Assembly (NCBI GenBank): GCA_021295715.1
Contig: JAGWBV010000085.1
Coordinates: 1-39,911, forward strand
Direction: 5' to 3'
DNA length: 39,911 bases
Origin: Candidatus Poribacteria bacterium
Lineage (GTDB): Bacteria; Poribacteria; WGA-4E; WGA-3G
Shown piece after piece: positions 30,136 through 39,911 of this stretch; within the stretch, counting starts at the first letter, position 1; the number at the start of each line of letters is the position of its first letter. Made by a program: the position numbers and the translations under genes. The notes under the pieces were generated by a model. It worked only from the letters and a program-made list of their open reading frames with translations. It had not been told where the DNA came from and made no database searches.

Positions 30136-31236
30136 TTATTGAGGGGACCAAGTGCGAAGCCCTTGAAAATCAAAATGAAAAGGAATGACTTGCGCGCCAA
30201 CTTCGCTAAAGACTCGCTTTGCATCGTGGATGCGATCTGGTTCACAGTGAAACACTAAGCACCCACCGCCACCGGCACCACACACTTTTCCACCACTACA
30301 CCCATTTGCTTTCGCAATGTTGAACAACTCATCGATGCGCTCGGTGTTTATCGAGGGATGTAACTGTTTTTGGAAACACCAGTTCTCATCAAGCAGTTGA
30401 CCGAAGTCAGAGAGATTGCGAGTCTGAAACATCTGTTTCATCTCATTGGCAATCCGACGAAGTGCTTTCAGGGCATCATGCGTCCCTCGATTTCCTGCTT
30501 GATATGCGTCAACGACATTCCGAAGAATATCGCCTGAAAAATGCGACTCCCCTGTGTAGACCAGGAGTAGAGAACTCTGCAGTTCTTTGAGAGCTTCCTC
30601 GGTCAGTTCGATTGGCGTTGCCTTAACCGATTCACCACTACATCGCAAGAAATTTATCCCACCGAGTAGGCTGGCGTAGTGATCCTGTTTCCCGCACGGA
30701 ATTCCGGTCTCCTGTTCAATGACGGCGGCACGGTCAACAATTTGGTGTCGCAGCAATCTTTTTTGCGTGAAAATCGAGAGCAAACTCGCAAGAGCGATTC
30801 CCAGGGCACCGGATGCCCCCAGACCACTTCCCTTTGGCACATCGCTCCACGTCACAAGATGGCAGCCTCTATTAGGACGCAAACGAGATAGAACCGCTTG
30901 CGGTAGATTCAATCCGTGCAGCGATGCCGAAACGCCTACCGGATGAAAGAACTCTTTGAGATCCACGGCGTAGAGGCTGACACACGAGTCAGGCACGGGG
31001 GTGAGACACACATAAACGTGTAAATCAATCGCAGCGTTGACCACTCCCCCTTCATTCTCCCGGGCGAACGGGATTAAGTCTGTCCATCCGCCAGCAAGGT
31101 CAATGCGCGTTGGTGCGCGCACATAAAGCGGCACGCGTTGGAATAGAGCCGTCATTGCGCTCTCGTGTTCAGCAGCTGGAGGTTTCCATTGATTTCCCTG
31201 AGCATCTTGTCTGTTATGAAGCAAAGTTGAACGCAT
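30136..31236 (-). CDS. GHMP kinase, D-glycero-D-manno-heptose-7-phosphate kinase-like
   Basis: The protein has 366 residues from the ATG at 31236, which has AGGAG 11 bp upstream; an ATG at 31155 closer to the domain is also possible. Family motifs are VRAPTRIDLAGGWTD at the N-terminus, the ATP-binding DVPKGSGLGASGALG, GKQDHYASLLGGINF, and the C-terminal CGAGGGGCLVF. The GGWTD and KQDHYAS patterns resemble HddA and the kinase half of fucokinase/GDP-fucose pyrophosphorylase. The enzyme would phosphorylate a sugar or sugar phosphate on the way to a nucleotide sugar. Because glycosyltransferase genes lie upstream on the same strand, it may supply their donor, but that is inference. Confidence 0.85.
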   Translation of the reverse strand: MRSTLLHNRQDAQGNQWKPPAAEHESAMTALFQRVPLYVRAPTRIDLAGGWTDLIPFARENEGGVVNAAIDLHVYVCLTPVPDSCVSLYAVDLKEFFHPVGVSASLHGLNLPQAVLSRLRPNRGCHLVTWSDVPKGSGLGASGALGIALASLLSIFTQKRLLRHQIVDRAAVIEQETGIPCGKQDHYASLLGGINFLRCSGESVKATPIELTEEALKELQSSLLLVYTGESHFSGDILRNVVDAYQAGNRGTHDALKALRRIANEMKQMFQTRNLSDFGQLLDENWCFQKQLHPSINTERIDELFNIAKANGCSGGKVCGAGGGGCLVFHCEPDRIHDAKRVFSEVGAQVIPFHFDFQGLRTWSPQ

Positions 31237-31277
31237 CTTGTCTGAGGCTCCTGTAAATAACGTAATACATCCGATGC

Positions 31278-31586
31278 TTAGACGTCTAAAACCGTGCAAT
31301 TCCAAAGAAACTCGATCGAGGCGTATTCTCCAACTTTTTGCATCAGTGCCGTGTGTGTCTCACGCCATAGTTTCGCTGTGCTTTGCAGATGGACCTCTCT
31401 ATTTTCCCAGAGTTCTGAAATACAATAACCGGCTCTATCTTGGTAAGTATCCAACAGTTCCACCTCCAAGCACCCGGGTGCGTTTCGTAGAACAGGGAGC
31501 CACTGTGTCTGGATAAATTTCTTCAAATCCTTCTTTTTCTTTTTTTCCCGCAGTGTGAGAATATAAAAGACTCTTGCTTTCGCCAC
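31278..31586 (-). CDS. Small ABM-like (dimeric alpha/beta barrel) protein
   Basis: The protein has 102 residues. The pattern of an N-terminal strand (ARVFYILTL), a lysine-rich helix (REKKKKKDLKKFIQTQWLP), PGCLEVELLDTYQD, SELWENREVHLQS and a C-terminal strand fits the antibiotic-biosynthesis monooxygenase fold (a ferredoxin-like dimer). Such proteins can be monooxygenases, heme-degrading enzymes or without known activity. The start is GTG at 31586, supported by AAAGGAG at 31594-31600. It lies between the prepilin peptidase and kinase genes on the same strand, with small gaps. Confidence 0.7.
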   Translation of the reverse strand: MAKARVFYILTLREKKKKKDLKKFIQTQWLPVLRNAPGCLEVELLDTYQDRAGYCISELWENREVHLQSTAKLWRETHTALMQKVGEYASIEFLWNCTVLDV

Positions 31587-31674: not shown

Positions 31675-32811
31675 TTACTGAAAAAACGTAAAGAACGGGC
31701 CTCGACACAAAAGCGTCAAGATAACACCCAAACAGATCACAGGTGCGAACCGTAAAGAGTGCTGGATGCGGATCTTGTTCTCAAAATCCTCAAACTCGCC
31801 ATCTGCTGCCAATTGTTTCAATTCCGCCGCCTTCTCTTTTGACACGCCCCCAGGCAACGTCCCTAGGACAATGTTTGAATTCAGCACATTTGGGAGTGCG
31901 AACCCTTGCTTACTGTAGCTAACTTCCCCGTCATCGCCTTTGCTTCTAACAATCTGTTCAGCCGGCACCATTCCTTCTTTCAAATCAGAGAGGTCTATCT
32001 CGCGATCTAACACGATGTTGTCGAGATTCTCAATGAAATGCTTCCCAAAGAAAAATACGGCAAGATACAGAAGGTATATCTTCAAGAGTGGGGTGTAAGC
32101 CTCCGACCAAGCCTTCAGCGTCCAAGGGGTTGTGATCACCATTAACTCAATCAGCACGACACAAACAACATAGTTACGAACCCTCTCCAGCCCGAATTTC
32201 TTTACAAAGTAACTGAGGGTAAGATACAGAGAAAATATAACCAAGAGTTGATGCCACAGTCCAAGTTCAACCCCTAACCATCCCAGCGAGAGCATAACAA
32301 ACTGTCGCAACCCGAGTAGAAAAATGAGGCTGAATATCCGCTCGAACATCTGTTTACGGAAGTCTTCTTGTCGGAAGATTGACATAAACGCCTGCCATTT
32401 CTGTCGGACATCCGTTTTCAGGCAGAGGTACGTAACAAGGATCATGCAATACGGCACGAAAATATTGATAATGAGGGTTGTCGGCGTATATTGCGCGAAT
32501 GCAGTGGCTTCGGCAAACAATCCCGCTGGCATCAGCAGGGAGGCACCCCAAACGAGTTTGGCATCTCCAGCGGCGAAAATACCGAACCAATAGAGTGCCA
32601 GAACGATTAAAAAACCGCCAACAATCGTAAAGATACTGTTTAAAAGGGCACTGTTCCCTGACAAAACAGAGATGACTTGACTGAGAATGCCAGCGTAGAT
32701 GAGCCCGTAGCTGCAAAAATTCTTGATTTTTCTTTCTCGCAAGTCTGTATAGGTCGCATAGCAGCAGAAAAGCAGAAGAAGAGCGATGAACAAATTCTGG
32801 TAGTTTAGCAT
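31675..32811 (-). CDS. Prepilin peptidase-like membrane protease, A24 family
   Basis: The protein has 378 residues from the ATG at 32811, which has GAGGA upstream. A24 aspartic protease motifs are seen: D23 in TYTDLRERKIKN and D83 in AAGDAKLVWG. There are about 8-9 hydrophobic helices. The catalytic core is like CpaA/TadV or archaeal preflagellin peptidases and lacks the N-terminal methylase domain of PilD. The C-terminal 170 residues, with a soluble loop (NIVLDREIDLSDLKEGMVP, VSKEKAAELKQLAADGEFED) and a last helix, are an extension beyond the usual 150-250 residues. It normally cleaves class III signal peptides. Its ribosome-binding site overlaps the stop of the kelch gene. Confidence 0.8.
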   Translation of the reverse strand: MLNYQNLFIALLLLFCCYATYTDLRERKIKNFCSYGLIYAGILSQVISVLSGNSALLNSIFTIVGGFLIVLALYWFGIFAAGDAKLVWGASLLMPAGLFAEATAFAQYTPTTLIINIFVPYCMILVTYLCLKTDVRQKWQAFMSIFRQEDFRKQMFERIFSLIFLLGLRQFVMLSLGWLGVELGLWHQLLVIFSLYLTLSYFVKKFGLERVRNYVVCVVLIELMVITTPWTLKAWSEAYTPLLKIYLLYLAVFFFGKHFIENLDNIVLDREIDLSDLKEGMVPAEQIVRSKGDDGEVSYSKQGFALPNVLNSNIVLGTLPGGVSKEKAAELKQLAADGEFEDFENKIRIQHSLRFAPVICLGVILTLLCRGPFFTFFQ

Positions 32812-32821
32812 TTCCAATTCC

Positions 32822-33901
32822 TCAAGGTTGGCCCTCGCGTCCCATTTTCAAGGTACCCCAATACGTTGGGAGTTTGCCGTTTGCTTCAACAGTACGAAAG
32901 CCCATCCCAAATACCATTACACTGGTAAAATGTTGCCTGTTTTCTCCGATCCCACCGAAGACATAAATGTTGCCGTTGACTACCGCTGCGCCAAAAGGAA
33001 TAAAAGGTGTTGGCATCGGTGGAATATCACTCCATTCCTCTGTCTCTGGATTATAGGTATCCACAGTTGCCATATATTGAGGAACCCTGTTTTGCCAAAT
33101 GGTCAAGAACAACCGTCGAGAATGATAGCCTCAGGTCTGGCATCTCATGCTTCTGTCTCCAGCGGTTGATTTTTGGATCATATTCCTCAATGATCTTTAA
33201 AAATGGGCCTCCAGGACCCACTTGCGGCCACCCACGTCCACCGACAGCATAAATGTGATTTTTGACAACTCCCACACCAAACCCCTCACGTTTCGTCGGC
33301 ATCTTCGTGCGCTTTGCCCATGTATCGGTCGCAGGATCGTAGACTTTCACAAGATCAACGCGTCCTGGTTCCTCAGGTTTTCTATCCTGAGGGAGCACAT
33401 ACCCGCCAATGGCATAGATTTTGCCAGCAACCACACCCACGCCGAACTGTCTACGCGGAACCGGCATATCCTGTTTTCTCTCCCATGTGTCGGTTTGTGG
33501 GTTGTAAACTTCAACAGCTACCGAGGTTTTGATATTCACGATGCGTCTGTCTATTCCACTATGATCCCCGATGACGTAGATTTTATTATCAACAACTGCT
33601 GTTGCAGGTGCTGCGCGGGAGGTTGGCATATCCGCGACTCTCCGCCATGTGTTGGTTTTCGGATCATACACTTCAACAGTTGACAGTCCAAAGGGATCCC
33701 GCCTATTTTCAAAGAGGGTGCCGCCGATGAGATAAATCTTATCACAGACCACAGCAGGCACGAATCTCGCTCTCTCTGTTGGCAGTTCGGGGATGACTCG
33801 CCACTCGTTTGCATCAGCATCTTCCATTGCAAAATGGAAAAAACGACGACAGCCAATCCAACTATGATCCATTGTAAAGACCGAAGTATTTTCAACAACA
33901 T
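32822..33901 (-). pseudogene. Kelch-repeat beta-propeller protein broken by two apparent frameshifts
   Basis: Three overlapping frames together give one exported kelch protein. An N-terminal anchor, LRSLQWIIVGLAVVVFSILQ, begins at the ATG at 33901 behind GAGGG. A frameshift near 33820-33840, close to an A6 run (33838-33843), leads into four kelch blades (33051-33820: DKIYLIGG, NKIYVIG, GKIYAIGG, NHIYAVGG). A second shift near 33095-33110 leads to blades five and six (VDTYNPETEEW, GNIYVFGG) and the stop at 32822. Six blades would close a propeller. Either the gene is decaying or the assembly has indels. Kelch propellers bind proteins or sugars; the partner is unknown. It lies between the peptide and prepilin peptidase genes. 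Confidence 0.75.
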
Positions 33902-34131: not shown

Positions 34132-34422
34132 TTATATAGGAACACAGAAATAGGACACAACACCGTTGTCAACATGGGAGCGACAATCCTCCTTACCCTT
34201 TACACAATGAGTGTGATTGTTGTTCTCACCACACATATACTCATTATCCTCATCGCCATGATGAGCCTCTGCGGTATCAGGCTCAAGCATCAATGAAGCG
34301 AAGATCGCTCCTGTTGCTACTGTTCCAGCGACTAAAGCGTTCTTATGCGCAACATGCCCATCTTCTTTGACGAAGAAGTCACTGAGACGTTGCTTCGTGA
34401 GTTGGACTACGTGTGTCTGCAT
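34132..34422 (-). CDS. Cysteine-rich small peptide, putative RiPP-type precursor
   Basis: The protein has 96 residues. The N-terminal 27 residues are charged (TKQRLSDFFVKEDGHVAHK) and could act as a leader. They are followed by a hydrophobic segment (29-46, ALVAGTVATGAIFASLML), an acidic/Ala stretch ending TAEA (50-53) that resembles a signal-peptidase site, and a hydrophilic core (54-96) with four cysteines at 64, 73, 80 and 93 and several Asn, His, Ser and Thr. The ribosome-binding site AAAGGAGGTGA (34429-34439) is an almost full anti-Shine-Dalgarno match, indicating strong translation. Upstream on the same strand are two glycosyltransferases with RRE-like domains. I do not recognise the family; precursor status is inferred from context. 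Confidence 0.75.
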   Translation of the reverse strand: MQTHVVQLTKQRLSDFFVKEDGHVAHKNALVAGTVATGAIFASLMLEPDTAEAHHGDEDNEYMCGENNNHTHCVKGKEDCRSHVDNGVVSYFCVPI

Positions 34423-34629
34423 GTGATTTCACCTCCTTTCATTTATTGGATAAACTTACCAAACTGGTGTTCATGCGGTGCGCCGTTGAGAACATAGAAA
34501 AGCCTAAGGATAAACCTTAAGGGACAGATGCAACATTCAGCGACAGCGGTCCGCAATTCCATGATTTGGTGAGACCTTATATGGCAATATTAGGGGTCTA
34601 AAAGGGTTCTACTGCGCATGACCCCAAGT
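34423..34629. promoter_or_regulatory. 207-bp leader region upstream of the peptide gene
   Basis: No gene is visible. The region holds the very strong AAAGGAGGTGA ribosome-binding site (34429-34439). It also has a short inverted pair, ggggtc / gacccc, within about 34594-34625, near the end of the glycosyltransferase gene. Its length, compared with 13-bp gaps in the rest of the operon, suggests separate expression of the peptide. No promoter is convincing. Confidence 0.45.
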
Positions 34630-36273
34630 TCAGACGAGATTTTCTAAGATTTTTTCGGCACGTTTCGGTTCTTTACAGATGGACTGAAGGACGATTTTAA
34701 CCGCCATCGGTGTGTGTTCCTCCAGAAGGGTCATCGCAATTGCTTGCTCCATGTCAACCGACGTTGGAACCTTTGATAGCACGAATGCTTCTGACTCAAT
34801 TTCACCGCATACCGGATTGTAATGTTTCCGAAAAAGCAGGCGATGTTTCGCAGGTTTGGGCTGGTACATCTTACGATTCTGAAGATCTGCAAATAAGCAG
34901 AGAATTCGCTGGATTGTCTTTTCCCATGTATAAGTTGAAATCGCCTTTAATCCGGCTTGCACCAAATCCTTCTGTTCGTTAGGATTTCCGAGCAGAAATC
35001 TGAGTTCTTGAGATATTGATTCAACCGGCACATCGACCGGGTCGAAAAGAGTTGGTGAAATCTGAATAAACCGACACGCACCTGAAATCTCTTCAGGCTC
35101 GGCATATCCCCAAACAACCGTTGGAACGCCACACGCAACTATCTCAAGTAGAAGTAGCGGCGATGATCCAAGAATCGTCGGAAACACCAATGCGTCTAAA
35201 GCATTAAAGATAAAAGGACTCGCCTCCTTGTCCTGCAGAGACGCAATATTAAAAAAGTTAACACACCCATCCCCCGTGAAATTGTCCTCCAGGGCGGAAT
35301 GGATGACCAAATAGTTGAAATCTGGGTTTGCCAATCGCAGTTTTCGCAAGAAGCGAAACGTTTCGTGCGGAGGCAGCCCTGACACGACCCCTACCAACGG
35401 TTTTTGCGAAATCGCTGCATTCCCGAGTGCCTGAGACAATTGCTGCTTACACTTCATTTTATCCATCGGTCTGAAAACAGATGTATCGACACCATAGGGA
35501 ACATGCTGAAAGACACGCATATCGGGAACGAAATCTGAAAAGAAAGTCTGCGTCCAAGAAACATCGCATGCAAAGGCATCAAAGTTTCTCAACGCCGTAC
35601 ATCTCTCAAGCACGGTGTTGCGTGCTTCATGACGCCTCAAAGTCTCGTTGGACAAGCGGAGTATGGCTGGAACCGTGTTAAATTTCAGGAAACCTTGTTC
35701 TCCTACGGTGAGTGGAGCCAAAGCGAGGACACCGTCGCAGTCCTTCGGAATAAACTTTGCTGGCGAAAACGAGCGGTCACTTTTAAAGAAAATCGGTTGA
35801 ACACCTTCAACCCGCAAGCCGTCTTTAATCTCCTGACGGTTGTTGTCCGTCTCAGATAAAGGTAGATAAAGGTCGGCATGATTTGCCAGCGTCGTTAGCA
35901 GATGATGATTCGCCGCATTCTGTAGGAAAGAGGTTGTCTTTCTGTTTTCCAAAATGCCCGCTGTCAGAAAAATTTTCGGTCGCCCACCACACGGAGAGGG
36001 TTCGATTTCAGGTTGATCCGGCGAAAACAGAACCCCGATTTCCGAAAGTTTAGAAAGAAAAGCGAGTGCCTCAAAAATCACAGAACGGGAACCATGTTTG
36101 TCAGCGAGCGTGTCAATAATGACATCCGTCTCCGAAACGCTACAAGCATTTAGGATATCGCAAACAACTTCATTCACTGGAATAACAACACCCGCATCGA
36201 GATCGGCAACGAATTGCTCGCCATCGCGTTTGAAATGATGAAGATTATGCAAATTGCAAGGAAATTCGATCAT
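34630..36273 (-). CDS. GT4-type glycosyltransferase with N-terminal PqqD/RRE-like domain (second paralogue)
   Basis: The protein has 547 residues. The first about 85 residues (HHFKRDGEQFVADLDAGVV, LSKLSEIGVLFS) match the PqqD-like or RRE pattern seen at the N-terminus of SCIFF-type peptide maturases. Then comes a GT-B glycosyltransferase: an N-terminal Rossmann-like half, VGVVSGLPPHETFRFLRKL, and a donor half with GSSPLLLLEIVACGVP, where E377 is kept but the first Glu of the EX7E motif is Gly369. The C-terminal 45 residues resemble the tail of the upstream paralogue. The ATG at 36273 has GAGGAAG. It starts 13 bp after the previous gene. It probably glycosylates a peptide or acts as a non-catalytic partner. 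Confidence 0.8.
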   Translation of the reverse strand: MIEFPCNLHNLHHFKRDGEQFVADLDAGVVIPVNEVVCDILNACSVSETDVIIDTLADKHGSRSVIFEALAFLSKLSEIGVLFSPDQPEIEPSPCGGRPKIFLTAGILENRKTTSFLQNAANHHLLTTLANHADLYLPLSETDNNRQEIKDGLRVEGVQPIFFKSDRSFSPAKFIPKDCDGVLALAPLTVGEQGFLKFNTVPAILRLSNETLRRHEARNTVLERCTALRNFDAFACDVSWTQTFFSDFVPDMRVFQHVPYGVDTSVFRPMDKMKCKQQLSQALGNAAISQKPLVGVVSGLPPHETFRFLRKLRLANPDFNYLVIHSALEDNFTGDGCVNFFNIASLQDKEASPFIFNALDALVFPTILGSSPLLLLEIVACGVPTVVWGYAEPEEISGACRFIQISPTLFDPVDVPVESISQELRFLLGNPNEQKDLVQAGLKAISTYTWEKTIQRILCLFADLQNRKMYQPKPAKHRLLFRKHYNPVCGEIESEAFVLSKVPTSVDMEQAIAMTLLEEHTPMAVKIVLQSICKEPKRAEKILENLV

Positions 36274-36286
36274 CGTTTTACTTCCT

Positions 36287-37984
36287 CTATCCGTTTACGG
36301 CTTCCTGAAAACCAAAAACCTTTTCGAGAATCGTTTCAGTTCTCTCCTGACCATATAAATGATGTAGCACGGCTTCAACTTCATGTCGACTGTGTTTTCT
36401 AAGCAGGGCCAATGACAAACCTTCCTCAATGGAGTGGGCATAGCGGTCTTTCATCAGGGGTCTTTCCTTTTCGAGAGTGATATTGCTCAATATTGCTTGG
36501 CGTTCAATCTGTCTTCGCCGATTATTCAGATAAGGGGCGAAAGAGATAGCGAAGTGCCGTTTATGTCGGTCCTCCAACTGCTGGGTTTGTTTCAGTCTCC
36601 TGAACAACGCAATGAGATTCTGTGCGGTTTTATCCCATGTAAAAGTCAGTGCTCTCTCCCGCGCCTTTTGTCCCAATGCCAATCGTGCCCTCTCATCGGT
36701 GAGGAGACTATTGACGGCATCCGCCATTGCACTTGGTGAAACCGTCCCAGCGAAACTGCCAATTTCATTGTCATACGCTTGTGCCGGCACAACAAGTCCC
36801 GCATCGCCGACAACCTCAGGAAGTCCATCAAGACGTGGCACAACCGGGGGGACCCCACAAGCCATCGTTTCTAAGAGCGCGAGCCCAAATGTTTCTTCAC
36901 CGACCATTGATGGGAAACAGTAAACATCAAAAGCATTTAAAAATCGGACAAGTTGGTCTCTGGGTTGCTGTGGTGCACAAATCAGATTCGGTGGCAGTTG
37001 CTGATGTCCGTAGATATTGAGCGTTGGCGCGGTCAGCAGAAAACACGCATGTGGCAGGAGTTTTGCAATTTTTATGTAAATTCCTGCCCCTTTTTCAGGT
37101 TGAAATCTTGAGAAGAAACCGACAACCGGCGAATAAGCAATTTGAGGGGCATTGAGCATCCTCGCCATTTCATTTTTAGCCTGCTGTTTGTCCAATGGAT
37201 AAAATTTGTTAGGGTCAACTCCCAATGATACGGTCTGAAAAACGTCCTTGTTAGAGACAAATCGACCATACAGATCACTCACTGAGTTTGTTGGCACCAG
37301 AAAAGCATCAAAAGGACGCATCGCCGTGTACCAGAGCAATCCTGCATTAATGACATCGCCATTGTGCCCCCTTGCGGAATAGATCGGAACAACAAAAGGT
37401 GCGTCAATATAACGTAAAAGTGGAAGGAACTGCGTGTCTTGGTGACTTCCTAACAGAACAGCATCGTAACTGCCCTGGATTAACTTTAGAAACGCAGATT
37501 TATCGTTTCTCTGGAATCTGATACCTTGGACATTCTCATTGAACTTTTCGTCGCGTTCACCTACTACGTCAAGAGAAGCATGTGCCTCCAGAGCTTTGAC
37601 GAGATTGTGATGTGCCACCGACACCCCACCCGTTGCTTTTGTAATGTCTGCTGCATAGGGACCGTTCTGTAGGACAAGAATCTTCAATTTAGTTGTAGTC
37701 TCTGCCCCCTGTGAGGCGGTGTTCCTTTCGAGGTTTGAAAAGAGAACCCCACGCTGTTCCATTGTTGATAGTGTATTTAGTGCCTCAATGACTAAATCAC
37801 GGTCATATTTTCTCTCAAGTCGTTCTATGATTTCCTCACTTGAAAAAGATGGGCATAGGTCCAGGATCTCCCAAGTGATGTTATCGATGCCCAATACAAG
37901 ACATTGGCTCAGATCGGCGACATACAGACGGTTGCCCTGTCGGAATTTATGTAGATGTGTGGTCGGTTTCGGACATACGAACAT
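36287..37984 (-). CDS. GT4-type glycosyltransferase with N-terminal PqqD/RRE-like domain (first paralogue)
   Basis: The protein has 565 residues. The N-terminal 85 residues (LHKFRQGNRLYVADLSQCLV, then LSTMEQRGVLFS) resemble the RRE leader-binding domain found in SCIFF maturases such as CteB. A GT4 domain follows: GGVSVAHHNLVKALEAHASL, acceptor half, GFFSRFQPEKGAGIYIKIA, and the complete EX7E motif with E364 and E372 in GEETFGLALLETMACGVP. A tail of about 100 basic/helical residues (HSIEEGLSLALLRKHSRHEV) is shared with the paralogue. The ATG at 37984 has GAGGAA overlapping the stop of the previous gene. It is the likely catalytic enzyme of the pair, transferring a sugar from a nucleotide donor to a peptide. 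Confidence 0.83.
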   Translation of the reverse strand: MFVCPKPTTHLHKFRQGNRLYVADLSQCLVLGIDNITWEILDLCPSFSSEEIIERLERKYDRDLVIEALNTLSTMEQRGVLFSNLERNTASQGAETTTKLKILVLQNGPYAADITKATGGVSVAHHNLVKALEAHASLDVVGERDEKFNENVQGIRFQRNDKSAFLKLIQGSYDAVLLGSHQDTQFLPLLRYIDAPFVVPIYSARGHNGDVINAGLLWYTAMRPFDAFLVPTNSVSDLYGRFVSNKDVFQTVSLGVDPNKFYPLDKQQAKNEMARMLNAPQIAYSPVVGFFSRFQPEKGAGIYIKIAKLLPHACFLLTAPTLNIYGHQQLPPNLICAPQQPRDQLVRFLNAFDVYCFPSMVGEETFGLALLETMACGVPPVVPRLDGLPEVVGDAGLVVPAQAYDNEIGSFAGTVSPSAMADAVNSLLTDERARLALGQKARERALTFTWDKTAQNLIALFRRLKQTQQLEDRHKRHFAISFAPYLNNRRRQIERQAILSNITLEKERPLMKDRYAHSIEEGLSLALLRKHSRHEVEAVLHHLYGQERTETILEKVFGFQEAVNG

Positions 37985-37997
37985 TGTGCATTCCTCG

Positions 37998-39911
37998 CTA
38001 ACGACAGGTTTCTTTTACCTTTCCACGCCAAAGGCTACCGTCAATAATCCGTCCATCAATGACCAAAGTCGGGGACCCTTTGATATTGAGTTCCTCCGTT
38101 CTTTGTATTTCCTTGACAAGTTCCAATGCCACCTTTTCCGATTCAACGGCTCGTGCGATCCTCTCTACATCCAGTCCAACGTCCTTCGCACAATTTACCC
38201 ATGCCTCCTGAAGATGGTCGGCACGACAGAGCAGATAGTCAAAGAGTTTATCCGGATACAGTTCGGCGATAACCATTTGTCGCTTGTTCTCAATGAGTTC
38301 GGGTTCACCGTGCAGACTTGTAAACGCGACCTGTTCACTTGTCTCTTCCTCAGATGCCTCTTCTTTACCGACAATAAACCGCAGCTTAAAATCAATTGTA
38401 TCCCCATACGTTTCAAAAAACGGCAGCAGTTCCTGTTCTGCTTGCACACCGTAGGGGCAATACGACATCACAAAGAGTTCAATCTCCGGTTTCATAGGTC
38501 CACGCATGCGCTGTTCAAGGATCTGCTTAAGGCTCAACTGCGTTCGGCTGTGATCAACTTCAGGCATCACCTGTTCGATAAGCTCATCAAACCCTGGAGA
38601 ATGCTCAGGTGTATGACACGCCATACAAACTTTTTCAGGCACTTGCCCGCGAATATTCTCCTTCAGCGGTGTATAGGTGTGCTGCTTGCCCGGACCGTGG
38701 CAGGTTTCGCATCCGACATCCACAAGATGTGCACGTTCTGTGTTACCTATCTCGTAACCGCTCTCATACCCGGAGCCAGTGACGTGACAGGTGATGCATT
38801 CTGGATAATATTCCCTGCCAATTGTCCGTAAGGTGTTAAACGCTGTCGCATGGGAGGAGTGCGACCACTGGCTGAATTCTTTTTGATGGCATTCTTGGCA
38901 TGCCTGAGAACCGATATAACTGTTGGTCTCGTCCTGTTCAAAAGGTTCCGAAGAAAACAAGCGATGACTCACAATCTGCAATTGATGGTCGGTAGCGACT
39001 TGATGATAGAAATCATCCAGGAGTTTTCTAACATCTGGATCGTCGGAGACCTGTTCGGTTAGGGCAATTTGCTGAACTTTGGAGGAAATACTTCCCACTC
39101 CATCGGTGAGCATCAACGCACCAAGCGTTTTCCCTTTGGCACTACAATATGCCAGCAAGACATCACCAACTTTTTCGGTTTCGCCTTCGGACGGACTCAA
39201 GATCGCTGAAAAACTCGGGTATTCCCGTGCCAACACCCTATTGACTTCTATAGGTGAATGGCTCAGTCCAACAACAAAATCAGATTGTGCTTGAACCTCA
39301 GAGAGAAGCGAATTGAACTTCTCAGACACAAACGCTACTTCCGCTGGGTCTTTAAGGTCCAATGTGACCATAGCGATTCGTTTCTCTCCAACCGTTTTTA
39401 TTAAATACGAGTCAAAATCTTGAGTCAAATCCGAATCTAAAAATGGAAAAGATAGGTCAGCTCCCCGATTCTGAACAATTTCAGTCTCTGCCTCAAAGGG
39501 AAAGAGTGCATCATACCCCATCATTTTCATCGCCGTAAGGGTTGTTTGCACACGATGTTGGTCTCGGCTATGAACCTCACTTTCAGTTGAAAGGTTGTCC
39601 GATTCAAACGAGTGGGGTTTCATGCTTTGGGGTTGAGAAGGTTGGATGCCACCAAGATCTACCAACAACGGAGAGAATCCGGTTTCTCGGAGTCTCGGTA
39701 GCCCACCGGATTGCCCGATGAAGCAACCACACGGCTCCAGCTGTGCTTGCGTGTTGCCCGTGAAGAGTAGAAGGTGTGTGCTGTCTGGTGAAACCTGTTT
39801 CAGCTGATGGAGATAGTCCGTCAAAGGTGTCGCATGAATCTGAGAAGCGAACTGTTTTGTTTCTCTAATGTGTTGTAACCGTTTCGATTCGCTCCATTTC
39901 TGATAAGCAAA
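37998..39911 (-). CDS. UshA-like / tetraheme cytochrome c554-like / thioredoxin-fold fusion (5' end outside window)
   Basis: The frame stays open to the window edge, so the true start is beyond 39911; a TTG at 39824 is only the first start-like codon. The N-terminal part (TGNTQAQLEPCGCFIGQSGG, SHSPIEVNRVLARE) is like UshA/5'-nucleotidase proteins fused to cytochromes. A c554-like part has four CxxCH heme sites: CQECH (38886-38900), CITCH (38784-38798), CETCH (38697-38711) and CMACH (38613-38627). The C-terminal thioredoxin fold has SYCPYG with a single Cys (38457-38459) and cis-Pro IKGSPTLVIDG. Hemes require periplasmic location, so a signal or anchor must lie upstream. It may handle electrons or thiols; the substrate is unknown. 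Confidence 0.8.
   Translation of the reverse strand, partial: FAYQKWSESKRLQHIRETKQFASQIHATPLTDYLHQLKQVSPDSTHLLLFTGNTQAQLEPCGCFIGQSGGLPRLRETGFSPLLVDLGGIQPSQPQSMKPHSFESDNLSTESEVHSRDQHRVQTTLTAMKMMGYDALFPFEAETEIVQNRGADLSFPFLDSDLTQDFDSYLIKTVGEKRIAMVTLDLKDPAEVAFVSEKFNSLLSEVQAQSDFVVGLSHSPIEVNRVLAREYPSFSAILSPSEGETEKVGDVLLAYCSAKGKTLGALMLTDGVGSISSKVQQIALTEQVSDDPDVRKLLDDFYHQVATDHQLQIVSHRLFSSEPFEQDETNSYIGSQACQECHQKEFSQWSHSSHATAFNTLRTIGREYYPECITCHVTGSGYESGYEIGNTERAHLVDVGCETCHGPGKQHTYTPLKENIRGQVPEKVCMACHTPEHSPGFDELIEQVMPEVDHSRTQLSLKQILEQRMRGPMKPEIELFVMSYCPYGVQAEQELLPFFETYGDTIDFKLRFIVGKEEASEEETSEQVAFTSLHGEPELIENKRQMVIAELYPDKLFDYLLCRADHLQEAWVNCAKDVGLDVERIARAVESEKVALELVKEIQRTEELNIKGSPTLVIDGRIIDGSLWRGKVKETCR

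Follow-up and report, generated by a model that had tools for sequence, protein, structure and literature searches.

A Poribacteria locus pairing RRE-fused GT4 glycosyltransferases with a hypervariable Cys-rich peptide family: a candidate RiPP system

Introduction

Two adjacent glycosyltransferases (GTs), each beginning with an RRE-like domain and followed by the gene of a small Cys-rich peptide, raise the question of whether this Poribacteria locus encodes leader-guided peptide glycosylation. The DNA that we analyzed, hereafter the window, is the whole stretch of 39,911 nucleotides at positions 1-39911 of contig C85, in a genome of 5.14 Mb and 175 contigs. The genes and coordinates given in an earlier note on this DNA were confirmed; the gene order, all on the minus strand, is UshA-like protein, rGT1, rGT2, 96-aa peptide, kelch protein, A24 peptidase, ABM-domain protein and GHMP sugar kinase. 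All close relatives of the window rGT1 come from Candidatus Poribacteria MAGs.

Results

The N-terminal domains of the two GTs span residues 1-89 of rGT1 (37718..37984, minus strand) and residues 1-91 of rGT2 (36001..36273, minus strand), both being of the same RRE family. The motifs quoted for them in the earlier note are exact (LHKF..LYVADL and EALNTLSTMEQRGVLFS in rGT1, EALAFLSKLSEIGVLFS in rGT2). In single-sequence scans, the ScfB-related and SCIFF maturase models were matched over their first 90-100 positions, and the full rGT2 protein reached 5.7e-5 against NCBIfam not_ScfB. When 92 N-terminal domains from Poribacteria loci were aligned and their profile was compared with the PDB, CteB was found with E=5.8e-14 (5wgg); NF040492 was matched by 89 of the 92 domains and PqqD by 57, with a best value of 3.3e-4. 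The AlphaFold model of the RRE domain (pLDDT 92.4, pTM 0.84) has the order β-β-β-α-α-α, which defines RREs according to the main text of PMC12710340. Foldseek with this model gave CteB as first match (E=2.6e-5, TM 0.75), and further matches were TbiB1, lasso B1, ThcOx, LynD/TruD-type heterocyclases, McbB, TigE and PbtF, nearly all of them known RREs. Both GTs of the pairs retain the domain. Judged by sequence profile and predicted fold, the N-terminal domains of rGT1 and rGT2 are RREs. The resemblance suggested earlier is thus upheld by the CteB profile match, the AlphaFold fold and Foldseek, and RRE identity survived the structural comparison with PqqD/RRE folds that had been set beforehand as a refutation test.

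The RRE-fused GT4 glycosyltransferase rGT1 (565 aa, 36287..37984, minus strand) matches Pfam Glycos_transf_1 at 1.4e-19. Its full-length model is that of a soluble GT-B enzyme, with MshA as Foldseek match (1.6e-18) and GlgM, sucrose-phosphate synthase, BshA, PimA and PimB' as other structural neighbours. EX7E, formed by E364 and E372 in rGT1 of the window, was kept in all 41 aligned rGT1 rows, a count that leaves out a 42nd row belonging to a GT2 protein. The intact motif and the fold bear out the GT4 assignment made before. The GT4-like rGT2 (547 aa, 34630..36273, minus strand), likewise fused to an RRE, gave a weak Pfam GT1 match (0.006), and the second Glu of EX7E was kept while the first was absent in 40/40 homologues. 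Because of this loss, rGT2 is probably a non-catalytic partner. As read from the motifs, the tandem is made of one catalytic-looking and one degenerate GT, a point absent from the earlier note, and the adjacency of two such GT4 proteins is an arrangement of the GtfA/GtfB type.

The gene of the 96-aa precursor peptide (34132..34422, minus strand) has a strong AGGAGGTG ribosome site. According to alignments of five paralogues and of 82 family members, the peptide has a leader of residues 1-22 (34357..34422, minus strand; F16, E20 and G22 conserved in the table of alignment positions) ending at the invariant Gly22, a hydrophobic segment at about 29-47, an AxA-like site and a core with 4 Cys at about 54-96. 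With four other paralogues of near-identical leader it makes up a subfamily, among about 17 precursor paralogues in the window genome. An iterative search collected 84 distinct precursors across Poribacteria, 82 of which were aligned. Gly22 and Cys64 are invariant in this alignment, and the leader carries the motif F-x5-G: counting Gly22 as -1 (G in 82/82), position -7 is F or Y in 82/82 (F in 78), -3 is E in 81/82, +2 is V in 76/82 and +5 is K or R in 79/82, so that the surroundings of Gly22 read E-[ED]-G and then K/H/R-V. The hydrophobic stretch begins at about +8 and is followed by an AxA site in 63 of the 82 precursors.

The cores have 2-8 Cys, mostly 4 or 6, and 5.3% Ser. Between precursors whose leaders are at least 90% identical, core identity is 34%, and 27% when Cys is left out. 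RiPP precursors usually show just this contrast between a constant leader and a changing core, and here the short precursor that shows it lies adjacent to the GTs. The peptide described earlier, with its leader-like N-terminus, hydrophobic segment and four-Cys core, proved to be a member of a conserved multi-copy family. Apart from Cys, the cores of the 82 precursors have no one conserved residue that could serve as acceptor. Only one of the 82 cores lacks both Ser and Thr, so O-linkage would be possible almost everywhere. In one genome (G012), two Cys-less short-core precursors with the leader, ending ...VIVAI, lie beside an RRE-GT pair (L161:9383-9912), and Cys therefore need not be the acceptor. 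Metazoan-like core folds (Dickkopf, EB, WAP, DX) were considered and set aside as weak matches in a few members, probably driven by composition.

To define the composition of the cassette, 48 loci were compared. The recurrent families were the tandem RRE-GTs, the precursor (39), the A24 peptidase (33), the UshA-like protein (28), β-propellers of PD40/TolB or kelch type, a SAM methyltransferase (12), an NTP-transferase (11), the ABM-domain protein (9) and the GHMP kinase (6); no radical SAM protein was recognized among them. Considering the 38 RRE-GT pairs with enough flank, a precursor was located within 9 kb of 35, an A24 peptidase beside 32 and an UshA-like gene beside 25. On the complete 5.85 Mb chromosome of G010, the distance to an RRE-GT is at most 12 kb for 14 of the 17 listed precursor genes, where random placement gave a mean of 0.9 and a maximum of 6 in 20,000 trials; the remaining three, with the same leader, are 340-350 kb away from any listed RRE-GT. 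Across 98 genomes, 32 contained both components, 3 RRE matches only, 7 precursors only and 56 neither (Fisher p=1e-15, relatedness being ignored). The presence of a conserved peptide beside homologous GT pairs in other genomes, the second test fixed in advance, was therefore found, both in 35 of 38 pairs and in this co-occurrence. Leader type and RRE-GT clade agreed in 66 of 67 precursors, 14 of which combine a type I leader (MQTHV..LTKQRL) with clade I and 52 a type II leader (MKxNLRGKIREF) with clade II, although this co-segregation may reflect descent only, since cassette genes are inherited together. Among 289 genomes searched, RRE-GT1 and precursors were found only within the Poribacteria phylum; neither this restriction nor the multi-copy nature of the system figured in the earlier note. 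Viral spread was rejected, since all matches in a scan of viral contigs were generic GT4 ones that did not involve the RRE.

The A24 prepilin-type peptidase (31675..32817, minus strand) has an archaeal-type C-terminal domain (Pfam Peptidase_A24 1e-7, Arc_PepC 2e-5), and both catalytic Asp are invariant in 35/35 aligned sequences. Since, in addition, it stays with the peptide where RRE-GTs are absent, it is likely the leader protease, a role that the earlier note did not give it, with a predicted cut after Gly22. In many cassettes a SAM methyltransferase adjoins it. The loci without RRE-GTs belong to genus g3 (G048, G053, G054, G056), in which peptide, propeller, A24 peptidase and UshA-like gene are all present, meaning that the peptides have no strict need for the RRE-GTs. 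Downstream of the UshA-like gene, STT3- or PMT-type membrane glycosyltransferases are encoded in three of these four species, and a GT2 with a fucokinase/fucose-pyrophosphorylase in the fourth. This pattern may indicate that the glycosylation route was replaced, or that glycosylation is not central. The PMT_2 or STT3 genes at such loci are at L136:15128-16906, L156:1970-4870 and L157:1940-4021.

Every peptide has a beta-propeller protein as its partner, a pairing likewise absent from the earlier note. In the window, this is a frameshifted kelch propeller, recognized by domain match and by comparison with locus L059 (33051..33872, remainder 32822-33112, minus strand); the frameshift is a deletion relative to L059, and two paralogues in the genome have it at an identical position (window 33051-33112 and L008:6449-6507). 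Peptide partners of three unrelated folds (PD40/TolB propeller, kelch propeller and LamG) share a terminal motif like KLxTTWGxLK, for example at L009:3876-4859, L063:13817-14845 and L059:13885-14997, which is possibly a C-terminal sorting signal of Poribacteria. ECF sigma factors fused to BNR/sortilin-like propeller regions of about 700 residues were also seen, at L070:17276-20326 and about 20 other loci.

The UshA-like ORF (37998..39911, minus strand), which encodes a tetraheme protein with a thioredoxin-like domain (CPYG), continues beyond the window end, and its start is unreadable because contig C85 is masked (N) from about 39912. Its 25 homologues all have 4 CXXCH together with EPCGC; the corresponding NCBI family, NF041198, is named UshA_like_PCGU, a (seleno)protein, whereas here Cys is present in 25/25. 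In 24 of the 25, the thioredoxin-like domain has CP[YF]G instead of CXXC, which makes a simple disulfide-oxidase role doubtful. Hence the periplasmic heme/thioredoxin protein of the earlier note stands as to its heme and thioredoxin-like parts, while the disulfide-making role given to it is weakened by the missing second Cys. Further along the contig, next to another precursor copy, an UshA-like piece is fused directly to a piece of the GT2 RRE region in a chimeric ORF (L008:7883-8266, C85 about 46882-47265), which is probably a decayed third cassette.

The small ABM-domain (monooxygenase-like) protein (31278..31586, minus strand) is a cassette neighbour in one clade. The HddA-like GHMP sugar kinase (30136..31305, minus strand) matches NCBIfam HddA at 9.7e-38, under the curated cut-off. 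Other sugar-activation genes near the cassettes encode a phosphomannomutase (CpsG-like, 1e-114), found in about 15 of the 48 loci, and a mannose-1-phosphate guanylyltransferase/HddC-like protein. Nucleotide-sugar genes are thus frequent neighbours, in line with the sugar kinase named in the earlier note. Because of these neighbouring sugar genes, which score below curated cut-offs, our guess for the sugar donor is GDP-mannose or GDP-heptose.

Discussion

We consider it probable, with appreciable room for doubt, that these genes form a Poribacteria-specific RiPP-type system of RRE-guided GT4 glycosylation, leader cleavage by the A24 peptidase and export. In the cytosol, the RREs of rGT1 and rGT2 would bind the conserved precursor leader. 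rGT1, with its retaining GT4 signature, would then glycosylate the variable core, most likely from a GDP-mannose- or GDP-heptose-like donor, while rGT2 would hold the substrate, as GtfB does for GtfA. Afterwards, if the steps follow this order, the precursor would insert into the membrane by way of its hydrophobic segment and be cut by the A24 peptidase after the invariant Gly of F-x5-G, and the Cys-rich core would be exposed outside together with its paired beta-propeller protein. In its fullest form, this is a new RiPP class of Poribacteria in which GT4-pair glycosylation is guided by RREs, release is due to A24, and hypervariable Cys-rich glycopeptides are displayed or secreted with matched beta-propellers; we hold this complete version only tentatively, doubt being slightly the stronger.

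Several parts of the data could also be read otherwise. The F-x5-G motif followed by a hydrophobic helix resembles Flp-type prepilin signals by eye, and the A24 peptidase is kept even at loci without RRE-GTs and stands next to the SAM methyltransferase in many cassettes. The precursors could accordingly be mini-pilins with a Flp/Tad-like leader, for which A24 is the main enzyme, the helix anchors or polymerizes the protein, the variable Cys-rich part forms the tip and the sugar added by the RRE-GTs is optional. We find such a pilin-like display unlikely, though worth keeping in mind: position +5 of the precursors is K or R, against the Glu of pilins, the AxA-like signal-peptidase site in 63/82 suggests release, and the recurrent cassette families include neither a Tad ATPase nor a secretin. 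Homology to Flp/Tad pilins at the level of Pfam Flp_Fap (PF04964) was rejected, since no precursor was matched in 40 genomes, with one weak match below the cut-off.

It is also conceivable that the GT pair makes a surface glycan, its RREs being vestigial or having another ligand, and that the peptides are secreted proteins with no dependence on it, carried along in one mobile or multi-copy block. Vestigial RREs have a precedent (described in the main text of PMC7470986), peptide loci without RRE-GTs exist, and the neighbouring genes are those of general sugar metabolism. Retention of the RRE on both GTs of the pairs, the linkage of 35/38 pairs with the genome co-occurrence, and a leader whose conservation, next to a variable core, well exceeds the demands on a signal peptide make this rather improbable. 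The RRE likewise argues against a further scheme, in which ordinary disulfide-rich proteins are secreted through long signal peptides and lie next to the GTs as a convenience of the operon, for glycoprotein decoration after export. The hydrophobic segment with AxA in 63/82 and the STT3-/PMT-type genes downstream in 3/4 of the RRE-GT-less cases would suit it, but a 22-residue leader that is acidic, near-invariant and accompanied by an A24 peptidase does not resemble a Sec n-region and rGT1 is modelled as a soluble GT-B, and we regard this scheme as very improbable.

If the RRE-guided glycosylation reading is true, leader-guided RiPP chemistry would extend to GT4 glycosylation, a prepilin-type peptidase would gain a role as RiPP leader protease, and a large, diversified set of glycopeptides would come from a sponge symbiont that is abundant but uncultured. 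A genome can hold as many as about 20 precursors with hypervariable cores, which points to functions in recognition, competition or contact with the host. Since every component is small and can be expressed in E. coli, the proposal lends itself to direct testing, and a leader that tolerates hypervariable cores would be a useful peptide-glycosylation tool.

A literature search covering few subscription papers or preprints returned no description of a Poribacteria RRE-GT4/peptide/A24 system, and no paper combining prepilin peptidase, RiPP and leader peptide. The RRE-Finder work (PMC7470986, Fig. S7) had already included RRE-glycosyltransferase fusions, and PMC12710340 (2025) names PF00535 (GT2-type) RRE fusions; the main texts of these two papers join an RRE to a glycosyltransferase but contain no tandem GT4 pair, A24 peptidase, propellers or Poribacteria family. 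Since RRE-GT fusions are known and no account of this system was found, it is probably a new class within RRE-dependent RiPPs, with no new principle. An 'RRE-containing' cluster was flagged by software in a Poribacteria MAG of genus WGA-3G (PMC12795557); its gene content is not described in the main text, and it may or may not be the same system.

By sequence and fold, the closest RREs are those of CteB (SCIFF/ranthipeptide maturase, 5WGG, TIGR03974) and of the NF040492 ScfB-related maturases. Theirs is fused to radical SAM/SPASM, whereas the Poribacteria RRE is fused to GT4, and no six-Cys SCIFF peptide occurs here; SCIFF/ranthipeptide membership was rejected, the RRE alone being shared and no radical SAM/SPASM maturase being recognized among the recurrent cassette families. 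In 47 of the 82 precursors, the leader region matched HxsA3 (NF038309; best E=2.1e-5), and the window precursor, at 15.7 bits, stayed below the cut-off, which is 65. This is a likeness at leader level alone, the cores having no His-Xaa-Ser repeats and neither HxsB nor HxsC being seen, and the Hxs system was set aside.

In glycocins, the SunS/GccA-type enzymes are GT2 and are not known to carry an RRE. The Poribacteria GTs are GT4 and not of this SunS/GccA type, which ruled out glycocin membership. Glycocins (sublancin, glycocin F, thermoglycocin; PMC12457901) are likewise Cys-rich ribosomal peptides, with glycosylation proposed here, but they use a C39 PCAT transporter where the Poribacteria system has an RRE-GT4 pair and an A24 peptidase. 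No PCAT was found among the recurrent cassette families, and generic ABC genes are present in 7 loci; beside the double-Gly-type leader of glycocins, the motif here is E-[ED]-G and then K/H/R-V. The GtfA-GtfB pair is not known to carry an RRE. In this pair (Gtf1-Gtf2), which acts on serine-rich repeat adhesins, Gtf2 serves as chaperone and binds the substrate (PMC8498110). Its substrate is a large Ser-rich adhesin, whereas rGT1 and rGT2 neighbour Cys-rich mini-peptides; in arrangement the two systems are alike, each a tandem of two GTs, which in GtfA-GtfB are one catalytic and one substrate-binding protein.
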